Shown here piece after piece: positions 38,982 through 59,608 of a stretch of DNA of 64,000 nt (positions are counted from its first letter, which is position 1; each line of letters opens with the position of its first letter). The stretch lies in the NCBI GenBank assembly GCA_013375455.1, contig JABXJT010000016.1:1-64000 (forward strand), in the 5' to 3' direction. The position numbers were made by a program, and so were the translations under genes. Under the pieces are notes generated by a model. The model searched no databases and was not told the origin of the DNA. It saw nothing but the letters and a program-made list of their open reading frames with translations. The DNA comes from Candidatus Helarchaeota archaeon (lineage in GTDB: Archaea; Asgardarchaeota; Lokiarchaeia; Helarchaeales; HEL-GB-A).

Positions 38982-39869
38982 TTAACGTTCCCCAGAAAGA
39001 TAATTCCCGCATTTTGGACAGCGGATGTTTCCAACTCTTGAGACCCGATAGCGCTGATTACAATATGCACAGTACATGTATACTGCAGCTTCTTGGGTCG
39101 CTTTACTTTCCTGCTGTCTTAACATTTGAATTATGAGTTGTGTCTGCTCTTCGATCCACTTTTTCCCTTCTTGATATTCTATCTCTTTTGCATAATAATA
39201 GGCTTCTTTTAATAGCTTGAGCGCTTCCTCATAATTGGCTTTATTTATGTATCCATATGCTTGCTCCGCCAAGGCCATGTATTTCTCGATGTATTGTTTA
39301 TGTTTTTGGGCTTCCGGGTCAATTTCTTCTTGCACAACCTGGCCTTCTTCTATCATTACAAGCGTGGATGATAATTTTTCAAAGATAGTATTTACACTTA
39401 GACCAGATTTTGCAGAAGATTCAAAATAGGGAAGTTTTTGGTTAGCCGCAATTTTTTCTATTTCAGAATGGGCAACTTCGCGGTCAGGGAGGTCTGATTT
39501 ATTACCTACTAAAATTACAGGTATTGATACGCAGTTATTTGAGACTTCAGTGAACCATCGGCTTAGATTTTCATAACTTTTCCGACTAGTCAAATCAAAA
39601 ACGATGAGTCCACCAACGGCACCCTTGTAATATAAAGGTCTGACGTAGGAGAAACGTTCTTGCCCGCCCGTGTCCCAAATTTGAAGTTTAACATTCCGTG
39701 TCTCCCCATTGATGGGTACCTTTATGGTTTTAATTGAAAAATCGACGCCGATCGTCATTTTATAGTCGTCTCTAAATACACCTTCGGCAAAACGAACTGT
39801 CAGCGCGGTCTTGCCAACGCCTCCGTCGCCCACGACAACTATTTTGAATAGATAATCGAATTCGCTCAA
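38982..39869 (-). CDS. Rab-like GTPase fused to helical repeat and zinc ribbon
   Basis: A 295-residue protein. The GTPase domain (1-175) has G1 GDGGVGKT (14-21), the switch I Thr in the MTIGVDF context, G3 WDTGGQE (66-70 core), G4 NKSD (123-126) and G5 SAKSG. Glycine at the Ras-12 position and Gln at the Ras-61 position are kept. A TPR-like helical pair (193-250) and a C-terminal zinc ribbon (Cys267, Cys270, Cys284, Cys287) follow. There is no C-terminal lipidation cysteine. Such fusions differ from Rabs that end in CC/CAAX. It is probably a self-scaffolded regulatory GTPase. Confidence 0.85.
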   Translation of the reverse strand: MSEFDYLFKIVVVGDGGVGKTALTVRFAEGVFRDDYKMTIGVDFSIKTIKVPINGETRNVKLQIWDTGGQERFSYVRPLYYKGAVGGLIVFDLTSRKSYENLSRWFTEVSNNCVSIPVILVGNKSDLPDREVAHSEIEKIAANQKLPYFESSAKSGLSVNTIFEKLSSTLVMIEEGQVVQEEIDPEAQKHKQYIEKYMALAEQAYGYINKANYEEALKLLKEAYYYAKEIEYQEGKKWIEEQTQLIIQMLRQQESKATQEAAVYMYCAYCNQRYRVSRVGNIRCPKCGNYLSGER

Positions 39870-42764: not shown

Positions 42765-43904
42765 TTAGAGTAAATCGACAATCAAGCTATGGATGTCGGT
42801 TAGGCCCACGTTCTCGATTCCTTCAATACCGTTTGATAAATTATCGAAGCATGCAGGACAAGCTGTGATGATCTCTTCAGCTTCATTATCGATATAGACT
42901 TTGACCACGTTTCTTGATATAGTTGTTGCAACATCAGGGAAAGTTACTTTGCATAAACCGCCGCCACCACAACAATAGGCATCTGCCTTTTCACGTTCGA
43001 GTTCAATTAGCTCTAACCCTGGAATGGCTTGAAGAATCGTTCGAGGGGCTTCATAAACGCCGCTATGTCGCGCTAAATCGCAGGGATCTTGAAACACAAC
43101 TTTCTTCTTATGTTCTTTATCTATCGTTAGTTTACCTTCTTTAATGAGGTCCGCAATTATTTCAGTAGAGTGGAGAACTTCAAACGGTAATTCTTTGTCA
43201 AGTTTCTTGTACTCTTCTTTCCACGCGAGATAACACCCAGGACATATTGCTACAATTTTCTTAACTCCTAATTCCTTCATTTTCTCGATATTATGCTTCA
43301 TGATTTCCTCGACTTTCTCATTTTTAATACCCATTAGGAAATAAGGAGCGCCACAACACCATTCGTCTTCGCCCAACACCGTGAAATCCACTCCCGCTTT
43401 CTCAAATATTAGAACCAAAGACTCTGGGATGTTATAAAGTGATCCTTTAAAGGATTCTTGGCATCCAACGAAGAGCGCGATCTCTGCTTCTTTTTTAATT
43501 TTATCCTTAATTTTATCTTCAATATCTTCGGTCCAGCTCATCCTATCCTCGTTTTCTAGCATGAAGATGTTTTTATTTTCCATGATACTGTCTAGCAACT
43601 TGGTGATCGCTTCTGGGCCTCCACCTTGCTCGATGATATATTGTCTCGTGGCCTTAATTGTTTCGAGAACCTTTGCACCAGATGGACACGTGTTCTCACA
43701 AAGACCACAAAGTACACACGAGAAAAAAGCTTCAATAGTCTTTTTGGTTATCCCCATCTTATTCAAGTAAAGTTCCCCGGCTAGAGTGACTTTTACTCTT
43801 GGAGAAAGCGATTCTAGGAGATTTGTTCGAAAAACCGTGCATTGCTGTCGGCATGTCCCGCAGACATTGCAGAGATAATAGTATTTGATCATATCTTTGC
43901 TCAT
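42765..43904 (-). CDS. GlcF/HdrD-like Fe-S oxidoreductase subunit
   Basis: A 379-residue protein. Two ferredoxin-type motifs (CNVCGTCRQQC and CVLCGLCENTCP) are followed by two CCG domains (GCQESFKGS...WCCGAP...CPGCYLAW and DPCDLARHSG...YCCGGGG...CPACFDNL). This is the architecture of glycolate/lactate oxidase subunit GlcF and heterodisulfide reductase HdrD. It overlaps the upstream FAD-oxidase gene by 4 bp (ATGA), so translation is coupled and the two form a complex. The electron donor is probably a 2-hydroxyacid. Confidence 0.9.
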   Translation of the reverse strand: MSKDMIKYYYLCNVCGTCRQQCTVFRTNLLESLSPRVKVTLAGELYLNKMGITKKTIEAFFSCVLCGLCENTCPSGAKVLETIKATRQYIIEQGGGPEAITKLLDSIMENKNIFMLENEDRMSWTEDIEDKIKDKIKKEAEIALFVGCQESFKGSLYNIPESLVLIFEKAGVDFTVLGEDEWCCGAPYFLMGIKNEKVEEIMKHNIEKMKELGVKKIVAICPGCYLAWKEEYKKLDKELPFEVLHSTEIIADLIKEGKLTIDKEHKKKVVFQDPCDLARHSGVYEAPRTILQAIPGLELIELEREKADAYCCGGGGLCKVTFPDVATTISRNVVKVYIDNEAEEIITACPACFDNLSNGIEGIENVGLTDIHSLIVDLL

Positions 43905-45430
43905 CTTGTCTCACCCAATCCTTCAAAGTTTACTATTGATGGAATTTCTCCCACGCCCATTTTAGACGGGTTCATTATGTTATTGGGATCCAAGGTTTGC
44001 TTGATCTTCTTCATGACGTCCATCGTGGCTGTTCCGTACTCTTTCTCGAGAAAGTGCTGCTTCCAAAGCCCAACTCCGTGCTCGGCCGTAATCGTACCAC
44101 CTAACGAATAAACCACGTCCAGGATTTTCTCTTGGTATTCTTTGATTTTGGCCAAATTCTCTTCCGTTACATTTTGGGCAGAAATGAGATGTACATTTCC
44201 ATCAAAAATATGTCCCATTGTTATAGGTATTACGCTGTATTCTTGAGAGATGGCTTTAGCTTTTTTAAGAAAATCAATGATTTTCGAAGGAGGAACTGCA
44301 ATATCCAGGACTGCTGGAATGAACATCCTGGGGATTGATGGGGGATCCATAGTACGTGCAATCCCAGGGCCAGCGTAATGACGTGCATCCCATAAGTGTT
44401 TTTGATCGAAGGATTCTTCCATCACGCGTACTTTAGGTATTTTTTCACCAAAAATTTCAGCGTTATTCATGGCTTCCTGAACCTTCTGGAGATCTTCTTT
44501 ATATTGTGAGCCAATAAGCCGAATTAAAATAGTACCCTCCCGTTTAGGCACCTTGATTTTTTTCTTCAGTATTCCTTGCTTAAACCGAAACTTCAAATTT
44601 GCGTTCATCCCTTCAATCGTCATTGGATCTACATACTCCAGCAGGGCTAAATCAACATCTAAATCGCGAATGACTTCTATAGCCTTATACGCATCGTCAA
44701 TATTCATAAAGGCGACTACGAGCGAGACCTCATTCTTGGGCAACTTTTGAATTTTCAAATAAATTTCCGTATAAATCCCAAGCGTGCCCTCAGACCCTAC
44801 GAATAATGAGGTCAGATCATAACCCGCCACCGATTTCTCGTTCCTTTTATGCCCCGTGTGGATTACGCTCCCATCCGCCAACACGATCTCTAATCCACGC
44901 ACGTAATCACGGGTGGTCCCAAATCGGAAACTCGAAGCCCCACTCGCATTATTCCCAACCATCCCCCCAATCATACATGCAAACGCACTCCCCGGCTCGG
45001 CTGGAAAAAAATAGCCATCCTTGGCCAAGGTTTCCTGGAGATACCAGAATTCAACCCCGGGTTCTACAGCAACGTATTCCTCTTCGAGGTTAATTTCTAG
45101 AATCTTATTCATGTGCCTTCCAAAATCCATCATTATCGTGTTTTCCTTGATGGGGAGCACTTGTCCACCTAAGGAGGTGTTGGCAGCACGCGGAATGATG
45201 GGAATTTTATTCACATTTGCGAATTTTACGATTTGAATAATTTCGTCCTTATTCTTAGGAGTGACTAGAAATCCTGCGTTAAAGTTAATATCCTTGTAAA
45301 GCGCTTCGAGACCCTTCGCAATCCAATCACCTGTAGCAACTAAATCAGCTTCATCGATAGACACATCATCATCTCCGCAAATTTCAACTAATTTTTCGTA
45401 GATCTCTTCTTTATCCATAAAAATCACCAA
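43901..45430 (-). CDS. GlcD-type FAD-linked 2-hydroxyacid dehydrogenase
   Basis: A 509-residue flavoprotein of the GlcD/D-lactate dehydrogenase family. The FAD-binding PCMH domain carries PRAANTSLGGQVLP and VEPGVEFWYLQETL near residues 75-130, then PGSAFACMIGGMVGNNASGA. The C-terminal substrate domain ends with GTITAEHGVGLWKQHFL, the family hallmark. With the Fe-S partner it oxidises lactate or glycolate (or a related acid). An ATG is present a few residues in, at the MDKEE region. The 4-bp overlap with the partner points to an operon. Confidence 0.92.
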   Translation of the reverse strand: MVIFMDKEEIYEKLVEICGDDDVSIDEADLVATGDWIAKGLEALYKDINFNAGFLVTPKNKDEIIQIVKFANVNKIPIIPRAANTSLGGQVLPIKENTIMMDFGRHMNKILEINLEEEYVAVEPGVEFWYLQETLAKDGYFFPAEPGSAFACMIGGMVGNNASGASSFRFGTTRDYVRGLEIVLADGSVIHTGHKRNEKSVAGYDLTSLFVGSEGTLGIYTEIYLKIQKLPKNEVSLVVAFMNIDDAYKAIEVIRDLDVDLALLEYVDPMTIEGMNANLKFRFKQGILKKKIKVPKREGTILIRLIGSQYKEDLQKVQEAMNNAEIFGEKIPKVRVMEESFDQKHLWDARHYAGPGIARTMDPPSIPRMFIPAVLDIAVPPSKIIDFLKKAKAISQEYSVIPITMGHIFDGNVHLISAQNVTEENLAKIKEYQEKILDVVYSLGGTITAEHGVGLWKQHFLEKEYGTATMDVMKKIKQTLDPNNIMNPSKMGVGEIPSIVNFEGLGETR

Positions 45431-45639: not shown

Positions 45640-46871
45640 AGACGCACTCATTCTAACAATTAATGCGGCTCACCGAACGGATGCAACTTAGGAAATCTGT
45701 AGCATTGTCCTCCCTCTGCCATAGGGGGAAGAATCTCTATAACGCGGCTAATTATGCGGTTCGCCAACGTTTCTTTAGGGAGCAGAAATGGCTTCGCTAC
45801 TATGACTTGAATCGGCTGTTGAAGCAAGACCCCACGTATCGCGCGTTGCCCATCCAGACCTCCCAACAAATTCTCCGCTTAATAGACAGGAATTGGAAGT
45901 CCTTTTTTCGAGCCATTAAGGATTGGCAAGACCATCCTAAAAAATACTGTGGCAAACCGCGGATACCACGCTACAAACCGAAAAAAGGGGAATCTATTGT
46001 CGTCTTTACGAATCAGCAATGTCGTATAAAAGATGGATTCCTTCATTTCCCAAAAAAAGAATTGCCTCCTCTAAAAATTCGGATGACGGGGTCGTTTCAG
46101 CAGGTACGAATTCTCCCCCGAGGCAATCATTACGTCGTGGAAATTATTTACAAGTGCCAACCGATCCACTTAGATTTAGCCAAAAGCCGCATCCTAATGA
46201 TTGATTTAGGTCTAACTAACCTCGTAACTGCCGTAAATAACGCAGGGTTGCCCCCGTTCGTTATTAAAGGCGGGTTGGTCAAGTCCATCAATCAATTTTA
46301 CAACAAGGAGCGGGCGCATCTCTCCGCATTAAAGGACAAGCAAGGATTAAAGGGGCAAACCAAACGACTGATGCGCTTGACATTGAAGCGGAATAATAAG
46401 ATCCGGGATTACTTCCATAAAACCTCGCGGACAATCATCGGGTATTGCGTCGACAATGAATTGGGAACGATTGTCGTCGGGTATAATGCCGGGTGGAAAC
46501 AACACATCAATATTGGGAGGCGGAATAACCAAAACTTCGTGACCGTGCCGTTTCATCAATTGATACAGCAGATTCAATACAAGGCAAAACTCGTGGGCAT
46601 TGAAGTCATCTTGGAAGAGGAAGGGCACACTTCTAAATGCAGTTTCTTAGATCAGGAACCAATTGAACATCATGATATGTACATGGGGCGAAGAATCAAC
46701 CGTGGGTTATTTCAAGCGAGTGATGGCACGCTCATCAATGCGGACGTGAACGGTGGCTATAATATTGGACGAAAAGCAGTCCCAAATGCTTTTAGGGCGG
46801 ATGGGATAGAGGGTGTTGGGTTACACCCGTATTCTATAGCAATTTGACATTGAATTAAATGAAATGCGTCT
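45640..46871 (+). mobile_element. TnpB-only insertion element (IS1341-like)
   Basis: A tnpB gene of 394 codons is bounded by imperfect inverted sequences. The left end AGACGCACTCATT (45640-45652) matches the reverse complement of the right AATGAAATGCGTCT (46858-46871) except in the middle. No tnpA gene is present, as in IS1341-type elements mobilised in trans. The region is more GC-rich than its flanks, consistent with transfer. Element ends and any target-site feature are inferred; the guide RNA expected near the right end cannot be defined by eye. Confidence 0.6.
45663..46847 (+). CDS. tnpB: TnpB-family RNA-guided nuclease
   Basis: A 394-residue protein. The N-terminus (MRLTERMQLRKS) and the RuvC-like nuclease have catalytic Asp181 (MIDLGLTN), a Glu near 318-320 (LEEEGHTSK) and Asp361 (INADVNGGYNIGRK). 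The zinc-finger region is of the form TSKCSFLDQEPI...GRRINRGLF and lacks the usual four cysteines, as in one TnpB lineage. The catalytic residues and full length suggest it is intact. TnpB of other IS605-family elements cuts DNA under an RNA guide and helps the element persist. Confidence 0.9.
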   Translation: MRLTERMQLRKSVALSSLCHRGKNLYNAANYAVRQRFFREQKWLRYYDLNRLLKQDPTYRALPIQTSQQILRLIDRNWKSFFRAIKDWQDHPKKYCGKPRIPRYKPKKGESIVVFTNQQCRIKDGFLHFPKKELPPLKIRMTGSFQQVRILPRGNHYVVEIIYKCQPIHLDLAKSRILMIDLGLTNLVTAVNNAGLPPFVIKGGLVKSINQFYNKERAHLSALKDKQGLKGQTKRLMRLTLKRNNKIRDYFHKTSRTIIGYCVDNELGTIVVGYNAGWKQHINIGRRNNQNFVTVPFHQLIQQIQYKAKLVGIEVILEEEGHTSKCSFLDQEPIEHHDMYMGRRINRGLFQASDGTLINADVNGGYNIGRKAVPNAFRADGIEGVGLHPYSIAI

Positions 46872-47312: not shown

Positions 47313-47846
47313 TTAGGTGCCTCTAGTAGTACGCCTTTCATAGGTTTTTATGGCTAATTTGATAAATGCCTCTTCTACCCCTTCTCCACTCTTAGCTGAG
47401 GTCTCAAAAAAATCTTCAGCCCCAATTTCTGAGCAGTATTTCGAACCTTCTTCCTTGGAAACTTGACGATCCTGCTCAAGGTCTAATTTATTTCCAATAA
47501 CAATGAAAGGAATATTTCCCGCGAATTCAATCAAGTCCTTTTTCCAGAGATTGATGTTCTTAAAAGAATTTAGATCGGGTATCTCATACACTATAAATGC
47601 AGTATGCGCACCATCAGCGTATTTTTTCCGTAAATCCCTAAATCGCTCTTGCCCCCCGATATCAAAAATCAGTAAGGAGATTATGACATCCTCATAAGCA
47701 ATTTGCTTCTCATAAACATTGTACCCAATCGTGGACATATAGGAATCTTCGAATTTATCATTAACGAACCGTTCAACTAAACTGGTCTTGCCAACCGCAA
47801 TGTCTCCAAAGAGAACCATTTTGTAGCGAAAGACTTTTTGAGCCAT
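47313..47846 (-). CDS. Ras/Rab-like small GTPase (array copy A)
   Basis: About 177 residues from the ATG at 47846 (MAQKVFRYKMVLFGD), which has GGGGTGG upstream; a GTG six codons earlier is open. G1 is GDIAVGKT (14-21), the switch I Thr is in YMSTIGYN, G3 is DIGGQE (62-67), G4 is NKLD and G5 is ETSAK. The residue matching Ras Gly12 is Ile and that matching Gly13 is Ala. The catalytic Gln is kept. No C-terminal Cys for prenylation. It follows the 1342-residue membrane protein after about 70 bp and is the last gene of the array. Confidence 0.92.
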   Translation of the reverse strand: MAQKVFRYKMVLFGDIAVGKTSLVERFVNDKFEDSYMSTIGYNVYEKQIAYEDVIISLLIFDIGGQERFRDLRKKYADGAHTAFIVYEIPDLNSFKNINLWKKDLIEFAGNIPFIVIGNKLDLEQDRQVSKEEGSKYCSEIGAEDFFETSAKSGEGVEEAFIKLAIKTYERRTTRGT

Positions 47847-47914
47847 TTTTGCCACCCCTTTCACGAGGTTTGAATTTCAAAAACAATTGATGCAATGAAT
47901 CTTTTAAATTTATC

Positions 47915-50900
47915 TCAGTACTTACTGTTTAGTTTAGTTTCTTCTTTCTTTTTGTTTTTAGATTTCGAGGTATCAGTGGGAATGGGTTGAAAAATGCCGA
48001 GTTGCCATAACCTATAAATGTCCCCGACAATCTTTAATTTTGATTCCAGTTGAGCAGAAACTGCCGTGGATAATAACTTGGCAAGATGAAAATGCCCTTG
48101 ATCTTCCTCGAAACCCATTCCAAGAGCAATTAATGCGGATTCAGTTTTTGCCAACTTCGGAATTTGATTTAGATTAGACATGTAGACTCTTTGGGGCAGG
48201 ACCAAATCCACTTCGAGATGCCTTTTGATCATATTATTAGCATTCGGTTGAAATATATTTATTTCACCCTTAAAATCCGTTAAGTTCTTCCGATACGTGT
48301 CTTCGAACTCTTTAAGGAAATTGGAAATATTTTTTCTCGTATATTTTGAGATTTTCTTTTCCGATAACAGCGTATAATTGGTCAATTCACCAGTAATCCA
48401 GAAAATCTCCAAGTTTTCGTAGGCTAATTCCCACCCTCCATCTACGGCTGGTTTGTCCGTTTTTATGATTCCCCCTTTAAATGAAGAAATAGCATTTAAA
48501 AACCCTGCGATTAATACTGGATTGATCTCTGAAGAGCTTACGGGATATTCAACGATTGGCACGCCATTCTGTTGAAAAATTAACATCATATATACCATAT
48601 TATGAACGTCTTCGAATTTTGAAGCGATTTCTTCCAATCTTTTAAGCTCTCGCCGCTTCCTAGGCCGTTTAACTCTAAATTCATAGAGAACCACTCCGGC
48701 TACTACTATAGCCAGTATGCTTCCCCAAATTGGGGAAGTTCTTTCAATAAGAGTGAGGATCGAAATAACGTTTATTTCAATGGGTCCAGTACTAGTAGCG
48801 TTAATATAACTCAAACCTTCATCATATTTGACAGTAATTTCGACTTTACTTATCCCAGATGGTATTTTCAAGGAAATGGATGCCTTTCCTTCTATATTTG
48901 TCCCTGAAACTTTTGTTTCACTTGCTGATTCATCATAAACGAACGAAAAAGTAATAATCTTATTTTCTGCAGGTGTTCCATTGATTTTCAAAGTAGCGGT
49001 TATCTCTAGATTTTCTCCTTGCATTATTTCGGCGGGTAGAGGGCTAAGGGTTAGCGTACTATTTAATTTAATAATTGGGATGACCGAGCTGGTAATAGTG
49101 ATATTTTGATTTTCGGCAGTTCCAGGATATTCTATTATTATCTGAGTGGAGTTCATTTGTGCAAGAGCTTCACCCGTGATTTCTGCAATCCCAGAGGAGT
49201 TTGTGATTTGGTATGAGGGGTCTTCGAGCGCTCCAGGTTGGAAAATAAATTTAATATTTAGGATTGCATTTGAAATGGGGGTTCCATTGAGATGCGTCAA
49301 TCTTGCATATAATTGGAAGTTGGTTCCTGCCAGGAAATATTCAGGTTCCGCTAAAATTATGAGATTTACTTCATTCCGCGGGATAATATACAGTGAAATA
49401 TTAGTGATTGCAAATTCGTGTTCTGATGAGAAGGCAGAGATGGTTATATTATATGATTGCCCTTCATTAACTCCTAAAGCTGACAGATCTAATAGTATTT
49501 GATAAATTCCAATTGTAGGGGCGAGCAATGTCATATTTTGGCACAAATTTCCAACGCAAATAGTGCAATTTCCACTCAATGCATCTACAGTAAAAATTGG
49601 TTGATTATTATAGGTATCTCGAAATATAATTTGAATAAGTAGGGATTCCTGCAAGTACCCAGAATATGATGGTTGTAAGGGCTCGATTCGCGTTGGAAGT
49701 TTCCTAATAGGGACTATAATAAAGAGTTCCGCAGCAATAAAACCAATTTGCTGGATTGTGATCCTTAACGTGTGATTAGTTCCTGAGTGAAATCCAGTTA
49801 CGTCAATAGTGATATTATAATAGCCAAAAAAGGCAGGAATCCAACCAATCGGAGGTCCCTCACCAAGCCAAGAACCTGATATTATCCCATTTTTTAAAGG
49901 GTCAAGAGTTTGATTATCATAGTAAAAGATGGTTACCCTCACGGTAGAATTATGGTAGGGGGCTGGATTTGCCAAGGCATGAGTTTGATTAATAAAATCT
50001 AAACCCACACAATTAGGAGCAGTGATACTTATATTGGAGAGCATGCCTCCAACAGTCACGCTGATATCTGAAATTTCGCTTGAAAGATAGAGAGGTTTTG
50101 ATAAATTAACAGAAAAATAATGTGCACCTCCAATTACTCCAAATGTTGAAATTTCAATCCTATATGTCCCATTTAAATAGTCATCAGCTATTTGGAAGGG
50201 TGCTGGCCAAGTGTTGCCGTCAGAACTATTTTTTACTAATAAATCGGCATCAATAAGAGGCTCCCCTGTATAATCATTGGAATAATTTACGAATACGAAA
50301 ATGGAATCCCCCGAGTCTACGATGCTAGTATGTGATTTGTAAGTTACGTTGGTTGGAATGTTATTGATAGTTAGAGATGATGTTCCTATCCCCGCAGATG
50401 TTCCATTGTACCAAGCAACCTGTAATGATGCAGACGTAAATGATCCTGTTGAAGTATTAGTAGGTGTCCATGAAGGATAGAATTTTATTGTTTTATTGGT
50501 GGTGATTGCCTCCCCAAGTGTATCGTTATAATTTGCTGCTAGAGGAAAAATGGTTAGATTGGCATCACCTGTTGTTAAAATATCAGTAAAATTTCCATAA
50601 ATTTCGATCGTGTCAGTGCTATTTATTTCTGAAACGGTGATTCCCGACCGCTTTGCATAAACACCCTCAAGATAATTCGTATCGTTACACTGGATCGTCC
50701 ATGTTCCATTTTCAGCGTCGGAGATTGATACGAAGATTCTTTTCGAACCATCACTAGTTGAGTTCCACAGACTGTGTGGACTAGATTCTTTCCACACGTT
50801 TATTGCCATTTTCCACGCTGGAAGGGAAAAATTCAATCGTTTTTCAAATGAATTTGCAAGAAAAGTTGCATCATAGGAGGCATTCCAAATGATTGCACTG

Positions 50901-51943
50901 GAATCCAGTCCTTCAAAAGTGGTTGTAACGACGTGGCTGTTTGTTTGACTATATGAAATAATATATTCAACTGAAAAATAAGCAGAAGAATTTGCAGAGA
51001 ATTGAAAGTTTAACGTGGTATTAGAAAATTCGAAGGTTGAAGTCCAACTCCCATCAGCCCGGGTTGTATCGATTACAGAGGAGCCATTAATTTTTAAATC
51101 GACATCTGATGGGGTTCTAGAGTTATTCCTCAAACCTACCCTTAATGTGAAGTCCCAGGGTTGTACAAGCCAAGCTGGCCCTTCGAACTCCACAGCGATT
51201 CCATTATCATCTCCAGGACCGTCGTTTTCATAAACCCATCTAAGATTGCCTTGGAACCCTTGTTCCTTAGAACCGTTAATTACGATGAAAAAGGCATTAG
51301 CATAGGTATTTTGCGCATCTAATTTTACAGGAGACGCAAAACTAAAGTCATCCCATCCAGCTGATGGTGGTTTGCCATAAGTTTCATTATAAAGCAGAAA
51401 ATCGGGGACGGGAAAACCACTTTCCTGTGTTGCGTTAAAAACACTTACATTGACACCCGTGCTTTTCCATACAGTTTCCCAGTAAACTGAGACATTATAC
51501 AGCAAGGCCGTCGAAATTATGTTAAAGCTCATCCCAAAATCTTGTTCAACAGTATCTGCCCAGTTGGATTCAATTACGTCTTCTTCAACTACCAGAATAT
51601 CCGTTTCTTTAAGGACTTCGGTGACGGTGATGTTTGAGTATTTAGCTACCCATGAAGTAGGAATTGGAACATTGAAACTTGAGTTTGAAGTCAGAAGACC
51701 TACAGTTCCGCTTTGATTACAAATCAATGTAACGTTGGCAGGCAGACCTTGACCCGTGATTTTTCCATCGGTTGATGTGAGTCCCGTGTTTTTTTGAAGA
51801 ATTGGTTCTCCGGAGTTCGGTTGACGCTCAATTATTGTTGTAGCATTAGCATTATTATTGTTTTGATAAAAAGCAAATCCAGCTCCAAGAACAGGCACTA
51901 AAAGAAGAAAGAGAAGAAAAAGAACTCTTGTATTTCTTCGCAT
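47915..51943 (-). CDS. giant type I membrane protein with putative longin-like cytoplasmic domain (array copy A)
   Basis: A 1342-residue protein. A hydrophobic N-terminal signal (about 7-24) follows basic MRRNTR. The ectodomain (30-1065) is Ser/Thr/Asn-rich beta-type, with many N-glycosylation sequons and Ig-like or big-domain spacing (repeated TNITYKSHTSIVDSG, PAPYHNSTVRV and ITSSVIPIIKLNSTLTLSP boundaries). One membrane helix lies at 1068-1087, followed by basic RVKRPRKRRE. The cytoplasmic part (1090-1342) opens with VHNMVYMMLIFQQNGVPIVE, then INPVLIAGFLNAISSFKGG, a longin/roadblock-like layout. A GTPase gene follows directly. Receptor function is inferred. Confidence 0.85.
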   Translation of the reverse strand: MRRNTRVLFLLFLLLVPVLGAGFAFYQNNNNANATTIIERQPNSGEPILQKNTGLTSTDGKITGQGLPANVTLICNQSGTVGLLTSNSSFNVPIPTSWVAKYSNITVTEVLKETDILVVEEDVIESNWADTVEQDFGMSFNIISTALLYNVSVYWETVWKSTGVNVSVFNATQESGFPVPDFLLYNETYGKPPSAGWDDFSFASPVKLDAQNTYANAFFIVINGSKEQGFQGNLRWVYENDGPGDDNGIAVEFEGPAWLVQPWDFTLRVGLRNNSRTPSDVDLKINGSSVIDTTRADGSWTSTFEFSNTTLNFQFSANSSAYFSVEYIISYSQTNSHVVTTTFEGLDSSAIIWNASYDATFLANSFEKRLNFSLPAWKMAINVWKESSPHSLWNSTSDGSKRIFVSISDAENGTWTIQCNDTNYLEGVYAKRSGITVSEINSTDTIEIYGNFTDILTTGDANLTIFPLAANYNDTLGEAITTNKTIKFYPSWTPTNTSTGSFTSASLQVAWYNGTSAGIGTSSLTINNIPTNVTYKSHTSIVDSGDSIFVFVNYSNDYTGEPLIDADLLVKNSSDGNTWPAPFQIADDYLNGTYRIEISTFGVIGGAHYFSVNLSKPLYLSSEISDISVTVGGMLSNISITAPNCVGLDFINQTHALANPAPYHNSTVRVTIFYYDNQTLDPLKNGIISGSWLGEGPPIGWIPAFFGYYNITIDVTGFHSGTNHTLRITIQQIGFIAAELFIIVPIRKLPTRIEPLQPSYSGYLQESLLIQIIFRDTYNNQPIFTVDALSGNCTICVGNLCQNMTLLAPTIGIYQILLDLSALGVNEGQSYNITISAFSSEHEFAITNISLYIIPRNEVNLIILAEPEYFLAGTNFQLYARLTHLNGTPISNAILNIKFIFQPGALEDPSYQITNSSGIAEITGEALAQMNSTQIIIEYPGTAENQNITITSSVIPIIKLNSTLTLSPLPAEIMQGENLEITATLKINGTPAENKIITFSFVYDESASETKVSGTNIEGKASISLKIPSGISKVEITVKYDEGLSYINATSTGPIEINVISILTLIERTSPIWGSILAIVVAGVVLYEFRVKRPRKRRELKRLEEIASKFEDVHNMVYMMLIFQQNGVPIVEYPVSSSEINPVLIAGFLNAISSFKGGIIKTDKPAVDGGWELAYENLEIFWITGELTNYTLLSEKKISKYTRKNISNFLKEFEDTYRKNLTDFKGEINIFQPNANNMIKRHLEVDLVLPQRVYMSNLNQIPKLAKTESALIALGMGFEEDQGHFHLAKLLSTAVSAQLESKLKIVGDIYRLWQLGIFQPIPTDTSKSKNKKKEETKLNSKY

Positions 51944-52092
51944 TTTGATGTTTCCCTTTATATTAAATCTCGCGTGTTTCCTATTTCCAATTAATGAATT
52001 ACATTACCGTCTTATTATATTAAATTTCATGTGATACAATTGAGGCGTTTGATTAAATTGAGAGTTGTATTTCAACTTTGAAGTTCAAAAAG

Positions 52093-52617
52093 TTAAGGAT
52101 GATGAATTTTATAAGTTTTAATAGCCAATTGAACGAACGCATCCTCCACGCCGTCGCCGGTCTTCGCGGAGGTTTCGAAAAAATCCACAGCCCCTATTGA
52201 AGAACTATATTTCTTGGCAGCATCTTTGTCAACCGCGCGTTGATCTTCGAGATCTGCTTTATTGCCAATGATAATAAATGGAATATTCCCAGAAAACGCT
52301 GATAAATCGTTTATCCATTGGGCAAGGTTGTAAAACGATTCAATGTTTGTCATGTCATACACGAGAAAGGCAGTGGACGCACCATCTGCGTATTTTTTTC
52401 TCAAATCTCTGAATCGTTCCTGCCCTCCAATGTCAAAAATCATTAAGGATATTACGACATTCTCATAGGCAATTTGCTTCTCGTACACGTTATATCCTAT
52501 CGTGCTCATGTAGGAATCTTCGAATTTATCGTTAATGAACCGTTCAACTAAACTGGTCTTGCCAACCGCAGTGTCTCCAAAAAGAACCATTTTGTAGCGA
52601 AAGACTTTTTGTGCCAT
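52093..52617 (-). CDS. Ras/Rab-like small GTPase (array copy B)
   Basis: About 174 residues from the ATG at 52617 (MAQKVFRYKMV). G1 is GDTAVGKT; the switch I region YMSTIGYN, G3 DIGGQE, G4 NKAD and G5 ETSAK are all present. The residue matching Ras Gly12 is Thr. The C-terminus ends HHP, without a cysteine. Sequence is very close to copies A and C, most differences falling in the second half. It lies between the two giant membrane genes and, like copy A, follows one of them by about 70 bp. Confidence 0.92.
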   Translation of the reverse strand: MAQKVFRYKMVLFGDTAVGKTSLVERFINDKFEDSYMSTIGYNVYEKQIAYENVVISLMIFDIGGQERFRDLRKKYADGASTAFLVYDMTNIESFYNLAQWINDLSAFSGNIPFIIIGNKADLEDQRAVDKDAAKKYSSSIGAVDFFETSAKTGDGVEDAFVQLAIKTYKIHHP

Positions 52618-52685
52618 TTTTTCCACCCCTCAGACGAGGTTTGAATTTCAAAAATAATTCTTGCAATGAATTTTTTAAATTTATC

Positions 52686-55600
52686 TCAGTACTTACTGTT
52701 TAGTTTAGTTTCTTCTTTCTTTTTGTTTTTAGATTTCGAGGTATCAGTAGTAATGGGTTGAAAAATGCCGAGTTGCCATAACTCATGAATATCCCCGACA
52801 AGCTTTAATTTTGATTCCAGTTGAGCGGAAACTGCGGTGGATAATAACTTGGCAAGGTGAAAATGCCCTTGATCTTCCTCGAAACCCATTCCAAGAGCAA
52901 TTAATGCGGATTTAGTTTTTGACATCTTCGGAATTTGATCCAGATTTGATATATAGACTCTTTGGGGCAGGACCAAATCCACTTCGAGATGTTTTTTGAT
53001 CATGTTATTAGCATTAGGTTGGAAGATTTTTATATCGCCCAAAAATTGCGTTAATTCCTTCCGATATGTGTCTTCGAATTCTTTAAGGAAATTTGAAATA
53101 TTTTTTCTCGTATATGTTGAGATTTTCTTTTTCGATAACAGCGCATAATTGGTCAATTCACCAGTAATCCAGAAGATCTCCAAGTTTTCGTAGGCTAATT
53201 CCCACCCTCTATCTTCGGCTGGTTTTTCCGTTTTTATGATTCCCTCCTTAAATGAAGAAATAGCATTTAAAAACCCTGCGATTAATACTGGATTGATCTC
53301 TGCAGTGCTTACGGGATATTCAAGTAATGGCACGCCAGTCTCTTGAAAGATTAACATGATGTAAACCATGTTATGAACGTCATCGAATTTTGAAGCGATC
53401 TCTTCCAATCTTTTAAGCTCTCGCCGTCTTTTTGGTCTTCGGTACTTAAATTGATAAAAAGCTGCACCTATAACCACGCCCACTACAGCACTCCCCCAAT
53501 AGGGCGAGTATCTTGCAATGAGAGTCAATATTGTAATAACTTCTAATTCAGCTGTGATGCTCGTGCTGTTTTTTATGTAACTAATTGGTCCCTCATAAGA
53601 AGCAGTGACCTTAATTTCACCAATTCCTGAGGGGACGTTGAGAGTGACAGTTGCTTTTCCATCCGAGTTGGTTTCCGCCACTTTTTCGGTGATTAAATTT
53701 GTTCCATCCGTAAAAGTGAATGTGACTATTTGGTCAGCTGCAGGGGTTCCATTGATTCGCAACGTAGCTGTGACTTCTAAATCTTCACCCACTAATATAT
53801 CGCCAGGGAGGGGGCTCAAGATTAGAGAACTATTTAAAATGATTATTGGAATGGATGAACTTGTAAGCGTGGTATTTTGATTACCCGTGCTTCCCGAATA
53901 TTCTATGATGATTTGGATGGAGTCCATTGATGGGTTGGTGTCTCCGATTATTTCGGCAATCCCGGATGAATTCGTGATTAGGTTAACGGGGGTGGTTTCG
54001 AACGGACCTGGTTGAAAGCGAAATCTCGTATTGAGAATGGCGTCGGAAATAGGCGTTCCATTCACATAAGTCAATTCCGCATATACTTTGAATTGCATTC
54101 CCGCAAAGAAATATGCCGGTATGGTCAAACAAGTTAAAGTCACTGCATTTCTTGGAATGATATAGAGTGATACGTTCACCATGGCAAGTTCATGTTCTGA
54201 TGAAAAAGCATATAGGGTAATGGTATAGGTCTGTCCCTCTTCGACTCCCAATAGGGATAAATCTAACACGTATTGATAAATTCCTACTAATGGAATGAGC
54301 AATGACATATTGTCGTAAAAACTTCCTATTTGAATCGTACAATTTCCACCTAATTGATAGACTGACGGGATAGATTCGTCATGGTGAGTGTCCTGAAAAA
54401 TTGCGGAAATTACGAGGGTGTCCTGAAGATAACCTGCATAATTCGGTTCCAACGATTGGATGCTGGTTGGAAGTTTTCTTGTTGGAACGATGATATACAG
54501 GGTTGCAGGGTCATAACCAGCTTGTTGAATCGAAACCCTTAGTGTGTGGTTTGTCCCCGCTTGAAATCCGGTGACATCAATTGTAATATTATAATAACCG
54601 AAAAAAGCCGGTACCCATCCTACTGCAGGACCTCCACCAACCCAGGTAGCGGTTATGATTCCGCTGCTCAAGGCTTCAAGCGTCAAGTTACTGAAATAAT
54701 AAATCCTTACTTTAACGCTTGAATTGTGGTATGGTGCCGGATTTGTAATAGCGTATGATTTATTTAGAGAATCCAATCCGATGCAGTTTGGAGCAGTGAT
54801 GCTTATATTAGAAGCACCTCCTACCACTCCAATCGTAAAGCTGAGGTTAGCATATTCACTCGATTGATGGAGAGGTTTTGAGAGGTTGATTGAGAGAAGA
54901 TACGATCCTGAGGTCAGGCCCAACGTCGATATCGCGATTTGATACGTCCCATTCAAATAATCATTGGAGATTTGGAAAGGAGCAGGCCAGATTGTATTGG
55001 AAGTGCTGTTTTTGATTAATAAATTAGCCCCTATCAGCCCCTCTCCCGTGTAAACATTTGAAAAATTGACATATGCGTAAATAGACTCTCCTGATTGAAC
55101 ATTACTAGTGTGAGATTTATAGGTGATATTCGTAGGGATGTAATTTACGGTTAAGATCGTAGTGTTAATGCCCGCCGCTGTACCATTGAACCATATTACC
55201 TGCAAACGCGCAGCTGGGTAAGAACTCAGGGCGGTATCATTTAATCTCCACTCAGGAGTAAATTTTATGCTTCTATTATTCGTTATAGCTTCCCCTACAG
55301 TATCATTATAATATGCTTCTAGTGGAAATACAGTTAAATTCGCATCTCCGCTAGTAAGGATGTTAGTAAAGTTACTAAAAACCTCGATAGTATCAGTCCC
55401 ATTCACCTCAGAGACTAGGATACCACTACGTTTTATATAAACACTTTCGACATAATTAGTATCATTGCATTGGATTGTCCATGATGCGTTCGCTGCGTCG
55501 TTAATGTGGACTTGCCTAGATGACCCAAGGAGACTTGAATTCCAATCTGCGTGTAAAGTTTGGTTTTTCCAAACATTAATTATTGACTTCCAGGCGGGAA

Positions 55601-56747
55601 TTTCAAAAATTAATTGGTTATTAAGCGAACCTGCCAAGAATGAGGCGCCATAGGTCGCATTCCAAAAAATGATGGGATCCGTATCATATCCAGTAAAATA
55701 AGTATAAACGCCATAGTTAGAGGTTAATTCATGAGTCATAGACCATTCTACTAAAAAAGTGGCGGATTCATTCGCAGAAAAGACAAATGTTATTGACCCA
55801 CTATGATTGTTATAAACAGATGTGGAAAGCCACTCGCCATCATTATAGTTTTTATCGGTTACTAGAGTACCATTGATTTTCAAGCCAATTTCAGAAGGAG
55901 ATTTTGACACATTAATCAATCCCACTTTTAAAGTGAAATCCCAATCCTTAAGGACCCAGGTAGAGCTTAAATATTGATAAGCAGCACCATCATCTACTTC
56001 TCCACTATCCGTTTCATAACCCCAATTAAAACCAGCTGGACCTCCCCCAAGTGTGCTAGTAAGAACAACAAAAAATGCATTCCCATAAGTATTTGAAGGA
56101 TTCAATTCCACAGGTGATGAAAAAGTAAAATTATACCATTTACTGATATGATCTTCATATGGTATATCGCCTCCTGATTCCGAATAATATTCAGAATATA
56201 ATTCTGAATCAGGAGCTGGTTGCGAAGCCTGTAATGTTGCATTATAAACCTGCACCGTTATATCTTCAAGTCTATCGATATCTTGTACATACATAGAAAA
56301 ATTTGTTATTTTCGTAGAAGCGCTCACATTAAATTGCATTCCAAATGTTTTGTCTCCTATATCTATTCTATCTCCTGTACTGTTATCCTCTATTATGACA
56401 ATATCGGTATCTCGAATGATATTGATAATAGTAATATTAGAAAAAACAACCGACCATGGAATGGGAACGGAAACTTCAAGACTTGCACTTGAATTTTTAG
56501 GAATAGGACCTCCGGTTTTATTACAAATCAACGTAGCGTTAGAGGGAAGCCCAGTGCCAATTATTTTTCCATCGGTTGATGTGATGTCTGTATTTTTTTG
56601 AAGAATTAGTCCTCCAGAGTCCGGTTGACGCTCAATTGTTGTTGTAGCATGATTATTACTGGTTTTTTGACAAAAAGCAAATCCAGCTCCAAGAAGCGGT
56701 ACTAAAAGAAGAAAGAGAAGAAAGAGAACTCTTGTATTTCTTCGCAT
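52686..56747 (-). CDS. giant type I membrane protein with putative longin-like cytoplasmic domain (array copy B)
   Basis: A 1353-residue paralogue of copy A. It shares the signal (MRRNTRVLFLLFLLLVP), a membrane helix at about 1079-1098 and nearly all of the cytoplasmic domain, including HNMVYIMLIFQETGVPLLEY and the final TDTSKSKNKKKEETKLNSKY. The ectodomain is clearly homologous but much more divergent, with different loops and small insertions, notably in the first 350 residues. This pattern suggests conserved inside function with a changing outside. Preceded by GTPase copy C (96 bp) and followed by copy B. Confidence 0.85.
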   Translation of the reverse strand: MRRNTRVLFLLFLLLVPLLGAGFAFCQKTSNNHATTTIERQPDSGGLILQKNTDITSTDGKIIGTGLPSNATLICNKTGGPIPKNSSASLEVSVPIPWSVVFSNITIINIIRDTDIVIIEDNSTGDRIDIGDKTFGMQFNVSASTKITNFSMYVQDIDRLEDITVQVYNATLQASQPAPDSELYSEYYSESGGDIPYEDHISKWYNFTFSSPVELNPSNTYGNAFFVVLTSTLGGGPAGFNWGYETDSGEVDDGAAYQYLSSTWVLKDWDFTLKVGLINVSKSPSEIGLKINGTLVTDKNYNDGEWLSTSVYNNHSGSITFVFSANESATFLVEWSMTHELTSNYGVYTYFTGYDTDPIIFWNATYGASFLAGSLNNQLIFEIPAWKSIINVWKNQTLHADWNSSLLGSSRQVHINDAANASWTIQCNDTNYVESVYIKRSGILVSEVNGTDTIEVFSNFTNILTSGDANLTVFPLEAYYNDTVGEAITNNRSIKFTPEWRLNDTALSSYPAARLQVIWFNGTAAGINTTILTVNYIPTNITYKSHTSNVQSGESIYAYVNFSNVYTGEGLIGANLLIKNSTSNTIWPAPFQISNDYLNGTYQIAISTLGLTSGSYLLSINLSKPLHQSSEYANLSFTIGVVGGASNISITAPNCIGLDSLNKSYAITNPAPYHNSSVKVRIYYFSNLTLEALSSGIITATWVGGGPAVGWVPAFFGYYNITIDVTGFQAGTNHTLRVSIQQAGYDPATLYIIVPTRKLPTSIQSLEPNYAGYLQDTLVISAIFQDTHHDESIPSVYQLGGNCTIQIGSFYDNMSLLIPLVGIYQYVLDLSLLGVEEGQTYTITLYAFSSEHELAMVNVSLYIIPRNAVTLTCLTIPAYFFAGMQFKVYAELTYVNGTPISDAILNTRFRFQPGPFETTPVNLITNSSGIAEIIGDTNPSMDSIQIIIEYSGSTGNQNTTLTSSSIPIIILNSSLILSPLPGDILVGEDLEVTATLRINGTPAADQIVTFTFTDGTNLITEKVAETNSDGKATVTLNVPSGIGEIKVTASYEGPISYIKNSTSITAELEVITILTLIARYSPYWGSAVVGVVIGAAFYQFKYRRPKRRRELKRLEEIASKFDDVHNMVYIMLIFQETGVPLLEYPVSTAEINPVLIAGFLNAISSFKEGIIKTEKPAEDRGWELAYENLEIFWITGELTNYALLSKKKISTYTRKNISNFLKEFEDTYRKELTQFLGDIKIFQPNANNMIKKHLEVDLVLPQRVYISNLDQIPKMSKTKSALIALGMGFEEDQGHFHLAKLLSTAVSAQLESKLKLVGDIHELWQLGIFQPITTDTSKSKNKKKEETKLNSKY

Positions 56748-56843
56748 TTTGATGTTTTCCTCTATATTAATTTCGCGTGTTTCCCATTTCCAATTAATGA
56801 ATTACAGGACCAATTCTTATTTATTAAATTTCACATGATAAAG

Positions 56844-57368
56844 TTAAGGATAATATACTTTATAAGTTTTAATAGCCAATTGAACGAACGCATCCTCCAC
56901 GCCATCGCCGGTCTTAGCAGAGGTTTCGAAAAAATCCACAGCCCCTACCGAAGAGCTATAATTCTTGGCAGCATCTTTGTCAACTTCGTGTTGATCTTCG
57001 AGATCTGCTTTATTCCCAATGATGATGAATGGAATATTCCCAGAAAACTCTTGTAAATCGTTTAGCCATTGGGTAAGGTTGTTAAACGAATCAATGTTCG
57101 TGATATCATACACGAGAAAGGCAGTGGCTGCACCTTCTGCGTATTTTTTTCTCAAATCTCTGAATCGTTCCTGCCCTCCAATGTCAAAAATCATTAAGGA
57201 TATTTCCACATCTGCATAAGCGATGTGTTTCTCGTATACGTTATATCCTATTGTACTAATATAGGTATCTTCGAATTTATCATTAATGAAACGTTCGACA
57301 AGGCTCGTCTTTCCCACGCCTGCGTCCCCAAAAAGAATCATCTTGTACCGAAGTAACTTTTCAGCCAT
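56844..57368 (-). CDS. Ras/Rab-like small GTPase (array copy C)
   Basis: About 174 residues from the ATG at 57368 (MAEKLLRYKMILFGD), with AAAGGTTGG upstream. G1 is GDAGVGKT, with Ala at the Ras-12 position and Gly at 13. The switch I YISTIGYN, G3 DIGGQE, G4 NKAD and ETSAKTG are present; no C-terminal cysteine. It is the first gene of the array on the minus strand, 96 bp upstream of giant gene B. Together with copies A and B it forms a family of three near-identical GTPases. Confidence 0.92.
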   Translation of the reverse strand: MAEKLLRYKMILFGDAGVGKTSLVERFINDKFEDTYISTIGYNVYEKHIAYADVEISLMIFDIGGQERFRDLRKKYAEGAATAFLVYDITNIDSFNNLTQWLNDLQEFSGNIPFIIIGNKADLEDQHEVDKDAAKNYSSSVGAVDFFETSAKTGDGVEDAFVQLAIKTYKVYYP

Positions 57369-57532
57369 TTTACCAACCTTTCCACGGTTCAATTAATTTT
57401 AAAATCAATTAAAATGATATTTATGCCTTCTTGTTGTAAGGAATTTAAATGTAGTTGTTTTCTTTCATATATGATGATAACGTTTAATGGAATGAAATAA
57501 TGGGCGTGGTTGATTAGCAGAGGTGGTTGGCA

Positions 57533-58987
57533 ATGTCGAAAGTGGAGAAGAAATTACGCTTGATTGTTCCAGCCTTGAAGAATGCGGTCAAAGAATGCAC
57601 GGCGTGTGGAGCTTGTCTTCAAAACTGTTATTTGAACAAATATAGTCCTAAGCTTGCCAAGAAAATCATGAGTTCAATTAGAGAATACGTCTTTTCAGAT
57701 TTTAAACGAAGTCTTCCCGGATTAGCAAAAACGGTAATTTGGAGATGCTGCACGGATGAATCTTGTCATTCCTTCTGTCCAAAGGGAATCAGTAAATCGA
57801 TTTTAATGATAGGGCTCCGGTTTGTTTTGTTACAAAAAGGAGAAGCGCCTTTTCTGATTCAACTGATAGAGAGTTCAATGAGGAGAAGTTTCCAAAAAGA
57901 CCCGGAATTTCGATTACAACGAGCTGCAATGAGAATCATTGGACCACTGATGTATCCAAGTAAATGGCTTAAAGAGAGAAGTAGAAAAGAGGTTACTGAA
58001 CGAATACAGAGAGCGAAAAATCCTCAATTTGATAGAATTAAGAAGGGAGCTACTTTATTCATGCCTGGGTGTGGGCATACTTATGGAATGCCCCACTCAA
58101 TTGAGCTCACGATGCGCATTCTGGACAAGGCGGGCGTGGATTATGCAACAATTGGAACGCCTGAATTCTGTTGTGGAGGAGTATTTGCTGTTGCAGGATT
58201 TTTAAAAGGTTCCTTATTAATAGGAGAGCGAACAGGAAAAGCTCTCAAAAAATTAAAGCCAGGAAAAGTAATTACAGCTTGCCCTGGGTGTTTTTCGGCT
58301 TATACTAATAAAGAGATTCCTACAGGAGTGGGAACGAAAACCTTCAAATTCCCTTTGAGTGAAATTCTTGAAGAGGCCGGAATAGAAGTCCTACACCTCT
58401 CTGAATTCCTCTTCCAACTTATTAAAAGTAGAAAAATCAAATTCGAGCGTAGAATAACACGCCCCATTGCAGTTTTAAATTCTTGTTCTACTGGAGGACG
58501 TGCTAAGACCTTGGGAAAGGGAGATGTATCTCAATTCCAGCATGAAATTTTAAAAAGCATACCAGGCGTCGAATATCGGGAGTTACCCCTTTTGAAGGAG
58601 ACAGCCCGCTGTTGTGGAATAACGGTAAAATTGACGGAAAAAGTGGCATCTCCTTTCTCGTTGTTAAATCCGGATCTTGCATTTAATTCTCAGAGGGAAG
58701 TTATTAATGATGCTTTATCTCAAGAAATTCGAGATGTGACAACCATCTGTGGAGGATGTGCGATGATGTATGGGGATGGGCTAAAACAGATGGGAAATCC
58801 CGTGAAATTCTGGGATATGCAAGAATTGTTAGCTCATGCAATGGGAATTAATGTTCATCCACGGCAAACAGATGAAATATTCAATTGGATGAAGTTGAGC
58901 CCACCCTATTTTAAAATTGGAATGTTATCTGCGATTCCCCGACTCATTGAAACCGCAGCTACAGCGGTAAAATATATTTTGAGTTAA
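57533..58987 (+). CDS. HdrD-like Fe-S oxidoreductase with two CCG domains
   Basis: About 484 residues from the ATG at 57533 (an upstream TTG is open); GAGGTGG precedes it. Ferredoxin-type cysteines (CTACGACLQNC) and a second altered set (CCTDESCHSFCPKG) come first. Two CCG-type half-sites follow: GCGHTYG...FCCGGVF...CPGCF and NSCSTGG...RCCGIT...CGGC. Such domains hold a non-cubane cluster in heterodisulfide reductase HdrD. No FAD partner is adjacent, unlike the GlcF-like gene at 42.8 kb. Its electron partner is unknown. Confidence 0.85.
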   Translation: MSKVEKKLRLIVPALKNAVKECTACGACLQNCYLNKYSPKLAKKIMSSIREYVFSDFKRSLPGLAKTVIWRCCTDESCHSFCPKGISKSILMIGLRFVLLQKGEAPFLIQLIESSMRRSFQKDPEFRLQRAAMRIIGPLMYPSKWLKERSRKEVTERIQRAKNPQFDRIKKGATLFMPGCGHTYGMPHSIELTMRILDKAGVDYATIGTPEFCCGGVFAVAGFLKGSLLIGERTGKALKKLKPGKVITACPGCFSAYTNKEIPTGVGTKTFKFPLSEILEEAGIEVLHLSEFLFQLIKSRKIKFERRITRPIAVLNSCSTGGRAKTLGKGDVSQFQHEILKSIPGVEYRELPLLKETARCCGITVKLTEKVASPFSLLNPDLAFNSQREVINDALSQEIRDVTTICGGCAMMYGDGLKQMGNPVKFWDMQELLAHAMGINVHPRQTDEIFNWMKLSPPYFKIGMLSAIPRLIETAATAVKYILS

Positions 58988-59077: not shown

Positions 59078-59608
59078 TCATTTAAAACGGGAATCATAAG
59101 TCTTCATGGCCAATAGGTTAAAGGCATCTTCAACACCTATTCCAGTTTTAGCAGAAGTCTCGAAAAAACCTAAAGCACCGAGTTCAGAATAAATTCTGGT
59201 TGCCTCTTCTGTAGGAACTTGGCGTTCAGCTTCCAGATCTATTTTATTTCCAATGATGATGAAAGGAACATCCCCAGCAAACTCAATTAAATCTTGTTTC
59301 CAATCATAAATACTGGCAAATGATGATCGATTCGTGATATCATACATTATAAATGCAATGTCTGCGCCTTCAGCATATTTCTTTCTAAGGTCTCTGAATT
59401 TTTCTTGTCCTCCAATATCGTAAATCATTAAGGAGATAGTTTTATTATTATGAGCCATTTGTTTTTCATAGACATTGTACCCCAATGTACTAATATACGT
59501 CTCATCAAATCTATCATTGATAAACCGTTCTACTAACGAAGTCTTTCCAACTCCTTTAGATCCAAAAAGAACCATTTTAAACCGAATTATTATATCATCT
59601 GAATCCAT
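59078..59608 (-). CDS. Ras/Rab-like small GTPase (unlinked paralogue D)
   Basis: A 176-residue protein with G1 GSKGVGKT (15-22), switch I Thr in the YISTLGYN segment, G3 DIGGQE (64 on), G4 NKID and G5 ETSAKTG. It is clearly related to copies A-C but more divergent, and has Lys at the Ras-12 position. No C-terminal cysteine. ATG start with GGGGTG upstream, and an ACTTAAATA element about 60 bases before. It stands 2 kb from the array with its own promoter and no giant membrane gene beside it. Confidence 0.92.
   Translation of the reverse strand: MDSDDIIIRFKMVLFGSKGVGKTSLVERFINDRFDETYISTLGYNVYEKQMAHNNKTISLMIYDIGGQEKFRDLRKKYAEGADIAFIMYDITNRSSFASIYDWKQDLIEFAGDVPFIIIGNKIDLEAERQVPTEEATRIYSELGALGFFETSAKTGIGVEDAFNLLAMKTYDSRFK

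Follow-up and report, generated by a model that had tools for sequence, protein, structure and literature searches.

What could a pair of giant membrane proteins be doing among genes for Ras-like GTPases in an archaeon? The question is raised by a stretch of 64,000 nucleotides from Candidatus Helarchaeota archaeon (assembly GCA_013375455.1, contig JABXJT010000016.1; the whole stretch is called the window here), in which two receptor-like genes, R1 and R2, alternate with small GTPase genes on the minus strand. We found that the receptors carry a cytoplasmic tail with a predicted longin fold, that this tail and the start of the following GTPase gene share one tract of low divergence, and that longin membrane proteins recur beside GTPases in other Asgard archaea. 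We give about an even chance to the reading that the two cell-surface receptors share a longin output module acting with the neighbouring Ras-like GTPases.

The array and its proteins

In the direction of transcription, the array reads GTPase, R2, GTPase, R1, GTPase. In both units 68 nt separate the stop of the receptor gene from the likely ATG of the GTPase gene, and the spacers 5' of the receptors are 96 nt and 149 nt, in array order. The initial annotation had described two giant proteins with a signal segment, ectodomain, transmembrane (TM) segment and cytoplasmic part, on one strand, each preceded by a GTPase and followed by another within about 70 bp, and this description was accurate. 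The features are as follows.

56844-57368, minus strand: Ras-like GTPase P0005, upstream of the first receptor (Pfam Ras, 3e-50)
52686-56747, minus strand: receptor R2 (P0002, 1353 aa), with signal segment, ectodomain, TM segment and longin tail (MG4, 6.4e-8, in the ectodomain)
56673-56747, minus strand: R2 N-terminal hydrophobic (signal) segment, aa 1-25 (hydropathy 2.69)
53448-53504, minus strand: R2 TM segment, aa 1082-1100 (placed by alignment to R1 only)
52971-53375, minus strand: R2 longin domain, about aa 1125-1259 (alignment with the R1 tail; fold from the R1-tail model)
52618-52685, minus strand: 68-nt spacer from R2 to its GTPase (52/60 identical to the R1 spacer in the spacer window)
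52093-52617, minus strand: Ras-like GTPase P0004, a mosaic (Pfam Ras, 4.7e-49; window identities)
47915-51943, minus strand: receptor R1 (P0001, 1342 aa; translation and hydropathy; MG4, 1.9e-8)
51869-51943, minus strand: R1 N-terminal hydrophobic (signal) segment, aa 1-25 (hydropathy 2.72)
48677-48733, minus strand: R1 TM segment, aa 1071-1089 (hydropathy 1.86)
47918-48676, minus strand: R1 cytoplasmic tail, aa 1090-1342, longin plus helical C-terminal part (structure model, pLDDT 87.9)
48200-48604, minus strand: R1 longin domain, about aa 1114-1248
47847-47914, minus strand: 68-nt spacer from R1 to its GTPase (divergence and window identities)
47313-47846, minus strand: Ras-like GTPase P0003 (Pfam Ras, 1.7e-48)
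59078-59608, minus strand: fourth GTPase, P0006, of the same subfamily (Pfam Ras; 62-63% identical to the others)

R1 and R2 are 61% identical overall and share one order of parts: a hydrophobic segment at the N-terminus, about 1045 residues of ectodomain, the TM segment, a basic stretch and some 250 aa of tail. They contain 48 and 47 N-glycosylation motifs, of which 3 and 1 lie past residue 1110, and the ectodomain of each matches the macroglobulin-like Pfam family MG4 above cut-off. Hydropathy left the TM segment of R2 unflagged even at 1.2, its placement resting on the alignment with R1 alone, and also marked stretches within the ectodomains (R1 728-746; R2 817-835 and 968-986). In the structure model of the R1 tail a beta-beta-alpha-beta-beta-beta-alpha fold matches solved longins, so that the longin-like tail proposed in the initial annotation is borne out at the level of the predicted fold. 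Further fold matches were adaptor sigma/mu subunits, COPI subunits and SRX. None of 52 tail members matched a Pfam longin family at E 0.1. We did not treat a sub-threshold match of the tail to TP0453 (6.1e-6) as a sign of homology; it covers the last part of the longin together with the helices behind it and occurs in only 2 of the 52 members.

The four GTPases all match Pfam Ras (E 1.7e-48 to 3e-50) and their translations keep the P-loop, DIGGQE, NKxD and TSAK motifs; a Pfam Ras match together with motifs G1-G5 places them in the Ras superfamily. They are 62-84% identical in pairwise comparison, and P0006 lies upstream of the array, separated from it by one opposite-strand gene. No cysteine occurs in the last 15 residues of any of the four. 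Because the window GTPases have no C-terminal cysteine for a lipid (prenyl) anchor, they may be recruited by the receptor.

A homogenised tract across tail and GTPase

The synonymous difference between R1 and R2 (pS) is near saturation over residues 101-1100 (0.68-0.92), against low values of 0.30 over the first 100 residues and 0.08-0.24 in the tail. The tract of low divergence starts directly after the TM segment, spans the spacer and ends about 60 codons into the GTPase gene, a part that includes the P-loop and switch I. The two copies, delimited by pS and breakpoints, are:

47667-48676, minus strand: conversion-like tract copy 1, comprising the R1 tail, the spacer and the first ~60 GTPase codons
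52438-53447, minus strand: conversion-like tract copy 2, comprising the R2 tail, the spacer and the first ~60 GTPase codons

P0004 is a mosaic, P0003-like in its first ~60 codons and P0005-like in the remainder; from codon 61 its DNA is 87-98% identical to P0005 and 57-80% to P0003. R1 could also be compared with P0008, from a Helarchaeota metagenome-assembled genome, the sole named relative in a protein search. The R1 ectodomain is 54% identical to R2 and 78% to P0008, whereas the R1 tail is 86% identical to R2 and 58% to P0008. The ectodomains are therefore old, whereas homogenisation of the tails is recent and best explained by gene conversion. The array is a tandem duplication with conversion-like tracts. 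Tail and GTPase start thus move as a block and the outer parts stay different, as would be expected for different inputs feeding one output; physical linkage alone could also produce such block movement.

A TnpB-like gene (45663-46847, plus strand; OrfB_IS605 1.5e-18, Cas12f1-like TNB 1.4e-8) adjoins the downstream end of the array and is a possible agent of local rearrangement. An FAD-linked oxidase with a CCG/Fer4 partner (42765-45430, minus strand) and, on the other side, a second CCG/Fer4 protein (57527-58987, plus strand) flank the array. Farther away, 38982-39869 (minus strand) encodes a Ras-like GTPase of 295 aa whose C-terminal extension ends in two CxxC motifs and is zinc-ribbon-like.

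Longin membrane proteins in other Asgard genomes

A word-based protein database search with the tail returned three proteins or none, because such a search needs shared exact words. A first scan of genome contigs with the tail gave no match, whereas whole-genome profile searches did find relatives; a lone weak match (4e-6, with 7997 candidates scored) was set aside as a histidine kinase by Pfam. At E 1e-25 the tail profile matched 148 of the 227 Asgard genomes, short or soluble frames included, where no more than 11 candidates were scored in any one genome. Forty regions were sampled from this list, 39 of them selected for open frames longer than 1000 aa. In all 40 open reading frames (ORFs) above that length a TM segment directly precedes the tail and is followed by basic residues; a hydrophobic segment at the N-terminus is present in 36 (of the four without it, L118 starts at a contig end). 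N-glycosylation sequons occur at 2.1-5.9 per 100 residues outside versus at most 1.3 in the tail. The topology read from the window thus recurs throughout the sample, and the receptor architecture is a genuine Asgard family.

The same design, with a predicted seven-helix sensor replacing the giant ectodomain, is widespread in Asgard archaea. These seven-transmembrane (7TM) longin proteins are modelled without a sizeable ectodomain, and their longin part scores highest in structural matching against TRAPP and Mon1-Ccz1 chains. Among 66 members, Pfam gave weak matches to Sybindin in 4 (best 0.019), Fuz_longin_1 in 1 (0.0099) and 7TMR-DISM in 1 (0.0073); no 7tm family of G protein-coupled receptors (GPCRs) was in the match list, and no homology of the 7TM bundle to GPCRs is claimed. 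In 30 of 40 fetched regions at least two 7TM-longin genes lie together, and they form two-type tandem pairs. Of 22 two-gene pairs analysed, 21 show 12-21% identity between the upstream (A) and the downstream (B) member and one (L209) shows 78%, and the best A/B split of a tree sorts 43 of 44 members correctly, the split being picked post hoc with support 0.71.

A Ras-like GTPase directly adjoins the 7TM-longin genes in 10 of the 40 regions. By position, GTPases were counted at 8/37 sites at -1, all on the same strand, at 3/40 at +1, at 3/72 at positions 2 and at 2/154 at positions 3 to 5; position 1 versus 3-5 gave 1.4e-4 in a Fisher test that treats loci as independent. Seven of the adjacent GTPases form one lineage (L181, L182, L184, L190, L194, L196 and L198), and those of L192, L195 and L200 are 32-51% identical to it. 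The seven carry WDFGGE in six cases and WDFGGG in L196; because the position of the DxGGQ catalytic glutamine is thus replaced, they may be slow or non-hydrolysing switches.

Linkage was also seen at the level of domains. Ras-like GTPase matches numbered 22 to 70 per genome in the four Helarchaeal genomes searched. In genome G004, with 119 longin-profile matches (E 0.001) and 70 GTPase matches (E 1e-10), 7 of the 64 GTPase matches listed have a longin match no more than 120 nt away, versus 1.5 expected, a number reached in 3 of 2000 shifts; at 120-2000 nt there were 12 versus 4.8 expected (16 of 2000 shifts). The seven close pairs comprise three longin-GTPase fusions in one ORF (two in L214, one in L215), three pairs of adjacent genes (L216-L218) and one convergent pair (L064). 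At L065 (12331-16551, minus strand), five tandem stand-alone 7TM proteins of ~260 aa lie near two GTPases and four longin-detected multi-TM genes; three that were compared are 68-74% identical, and two that were searched had no Pfam match. Stand-alone 7TM proteins near GTPases of G004, G002 and G001 were considered as kin of the 7TM-longin sensors and dropped, as they are not clear relatives.

For the giant receptors, one further direct pair was found: at L220, a locus of G004, a Ras-like GTPase gene lies 12 bp downstream of a receptor gene that encodes 1570 aa. This GTPase belongs to another lineage and shares 34-38% identity with the window GTPases. The giant-receptor regions also hold 17 GTPases at positions 2 to 5. 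Nine of these 17 are a divergent Ras-like GTPase that lies 4-5 genes downstream of a receptor type of 1100-1350 aa, on the opposite strand, at loci that look orthologous (L105-L112 and L114); a tenth locus, L115, has a divergent GTPase at position three. A 599-aa GTPase-like gene after receptor L040 was dropped as a partner, being an IF-2-type translation factor.

How the pair may work, and what it would mean

The gene order, the topology by sequence, the predicted fold, the relatives, the recurrent linkage, the fusions and the joint homogenisation are direct findings of the analysis; physical contact of receptor and GTPase, an exchange-promoting direction and control by ligand are inferred. 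The divergent ectodomains would bind different extracellular ligands or surfaces, and binding would alter the pairing or membrane positioning of the longin tails. Paired under the membrane, the tails could form a platform that holds the GTPase encoded next door and most likely promotes its GTP loading, in the way that TRAPP and Mon1-Ccz1 load Rabs through their longin pairs. Resemblance of fold, itself predicted, does not settle the direction of control; we favour that of a guanine nucleotide exchange factor (GEF) on the grounds that GEF subunits give the top scores for the longin part of the 7TM relatives. More tentatively, we propose a previously unnamed class, the Asgard receptor-GEFs, in which giant single-pass or seven-helix sensors would use cytoplasmic longins to load neighbouring Ras/Rab-like GTPases.

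Several observations weigh against the reading of the array as receptors whose longin module acts with the GTPases. The initial annotation named a conserved pairing of such receptors with DIGGQE-type GTPases across clades as support, and this neighbourhood is not conserved: none of the 73 positions at +/-1 in the 40 giant-receptor regions holds a GTPase, leaving L220 as the sole other pair. Likewise, no Ras-like GTPase is among the neighbouring genes shown for 8 giant longin proteins mapped in Helarchaeal genomes (the full tail is present in 7 and part of it in L055; further frames in G003 and G004 were left out) or adjacent at 30 loci with ~1.5-kb flanks (largely the same genes), and the G001 member of the window GTPase subfamily has no longin gene nearby. 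What stands of the pairing is that longin membrane proteins lie beside small GTPases of more than one lineage. Even there, the seven GTPases of one lineage are 54-76% identical, so that few independent pairings were seen, not ten, and those of L190 and L195 were called without the P-loop, which sits in frame upstream (an unusual start or an interruption, judging from sequence). In G004, three of the close pairs are fusions and one is convergent, and there is no excess at 120-600 nt (1 versus 1.3 expected). The best structural match of the window tail is the SNARE longin Sec22b, tied with GEF longins, and longins have non-GTPase roles too.

The main rival is that the giant proteins are adhesins or surface-coat proteins whose longin tail is bound by the GTP-bound GTPase, as in Arf-adaptor complexes or SR-beta-SRX, to place, cluster or sort them; information would then run from inside to outside or not at all. 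The adaptor, COPI and SRX matches of the tail and the MG4 matches of the ectodomain suit this reading, as do the prominent and numerous surface proteins, with no highly ordered S-layer, described for Lokiarchaeal cells in the portion of PMC9834061 consulted. However, 7TM-longins, modelled with no ectodomain of any size, are still GTPase-linked, which fits a sensor better than a coat, and their longin part resembles TRAPP and Mon1-Ccz1 most. We regard the adhesin or coat reading as unlikely, though a serious competitor.

That genomes rich in GTPases and longins simply duplicate and shuffle, leaving a tandem duplication with no functional coupling, we consider improbable. Direct giant-receptor pairs are rare, copy numbers such as those of G004 are high, and most adjacent GTPases in the 7TM sample belong to one lineage; yet adjacency exceeds local and shifted controls, fusions exist, longin membrane proteins have neighbours from different GTPase lineages, and the homogenised tract covers both genes. 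The array is more than chance because it combines a tandem duplication with conversion-like tracts and relatives of both gene types elsewhere. Slightly less probable still is a longin tail that acts as a GTPase-activating protein (GAP) and shuts the GTPase off on receptor engagement, like MglB for MglA: roadblock/longin relatives include GAPs, and Foldseek listed the roadblock GAP MglB for the 7TM-longin model, but the window GTPases keep the DIGGQE glutamine and the 52-row tail alignment has no invariant or near-invariant arginine, neither point being decisive.

Returning to the receptor-GEF proposal, known systems resemble it in part. Plexins and GPCR-G protein systems are transmembrane receptors that directly control a GTPase, the plexin tail having a RasGAP-type fold and GPCR partners being heterotrimeric. 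TRAPP core, Mon1-Ccz1, Fuzzy-Inturned and BLOC-3 combine a longin fold with Rab-type GTPase partners and are among the best structural matches; such eukaryotic complexes are soluble, multi-subunit and without an ectodomain, and the window tail differs from them in its lack of a Pfam longin match. MglB is likewise a soluble regulator without receptor fusion. MglA-MglB of Myxococcus, in the parts of PMC4316618 used, joins a small GTPase to a roadblock regulator. The closest working analogue is the actinobacterial conservons (AGPS, CvnA-D), going by portions of PMC13343842 and PMC4316618. These have a histidine-kinase-like sensor and the roadblock as a separate protein, whereas here the longin platform is part of the receptor itself and the array encodes no kinase; the array proteins matched no kinase or roadblock Pfam family, as a CvnA and an MglB-type CvnB would. 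Asgard longin and roadblock proteins are of the same domain class and from the same archaea as the window tail. The sections of PMC10933270 drawn on here report dozens of such domains and GTPase-longin and GTPase-roadblock fusions, and state that MK-D1 GTPase genes generally lie outside operons with longin or roadblock genes and that pairing GTPases with regulators, which rarely share operons, is hard. A term search found neither "receptor" nor "transmembrane" in its main text, and longin-bearing archaeal receptors were unreported in the titles and abstract openings of the open-licence PMC literature surveyed.

Among the many GTPases of these archaea, specific candidates for pairing with a regulator are singled out by gene order, by fusions and by the shared homogenised tract; a simple set is a GTPase with two 7TM-longin genes, which recurs in several genomes. 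If the proposal is true, small GTPases would be switched across the membrane in a prokaryote, and the ancestors of TRAPP- and Mon1-Ccz1-type GEFs could have membrane-bound kin in the seven-helix pairs. Should the tails drive exchange, the roots of Rab-type longin GEFs and of outside-in small-GTPase control would lie in archaeal membrane receptors, which would bear on the beginnings of eukaryotic signalling and membrane trafficking.
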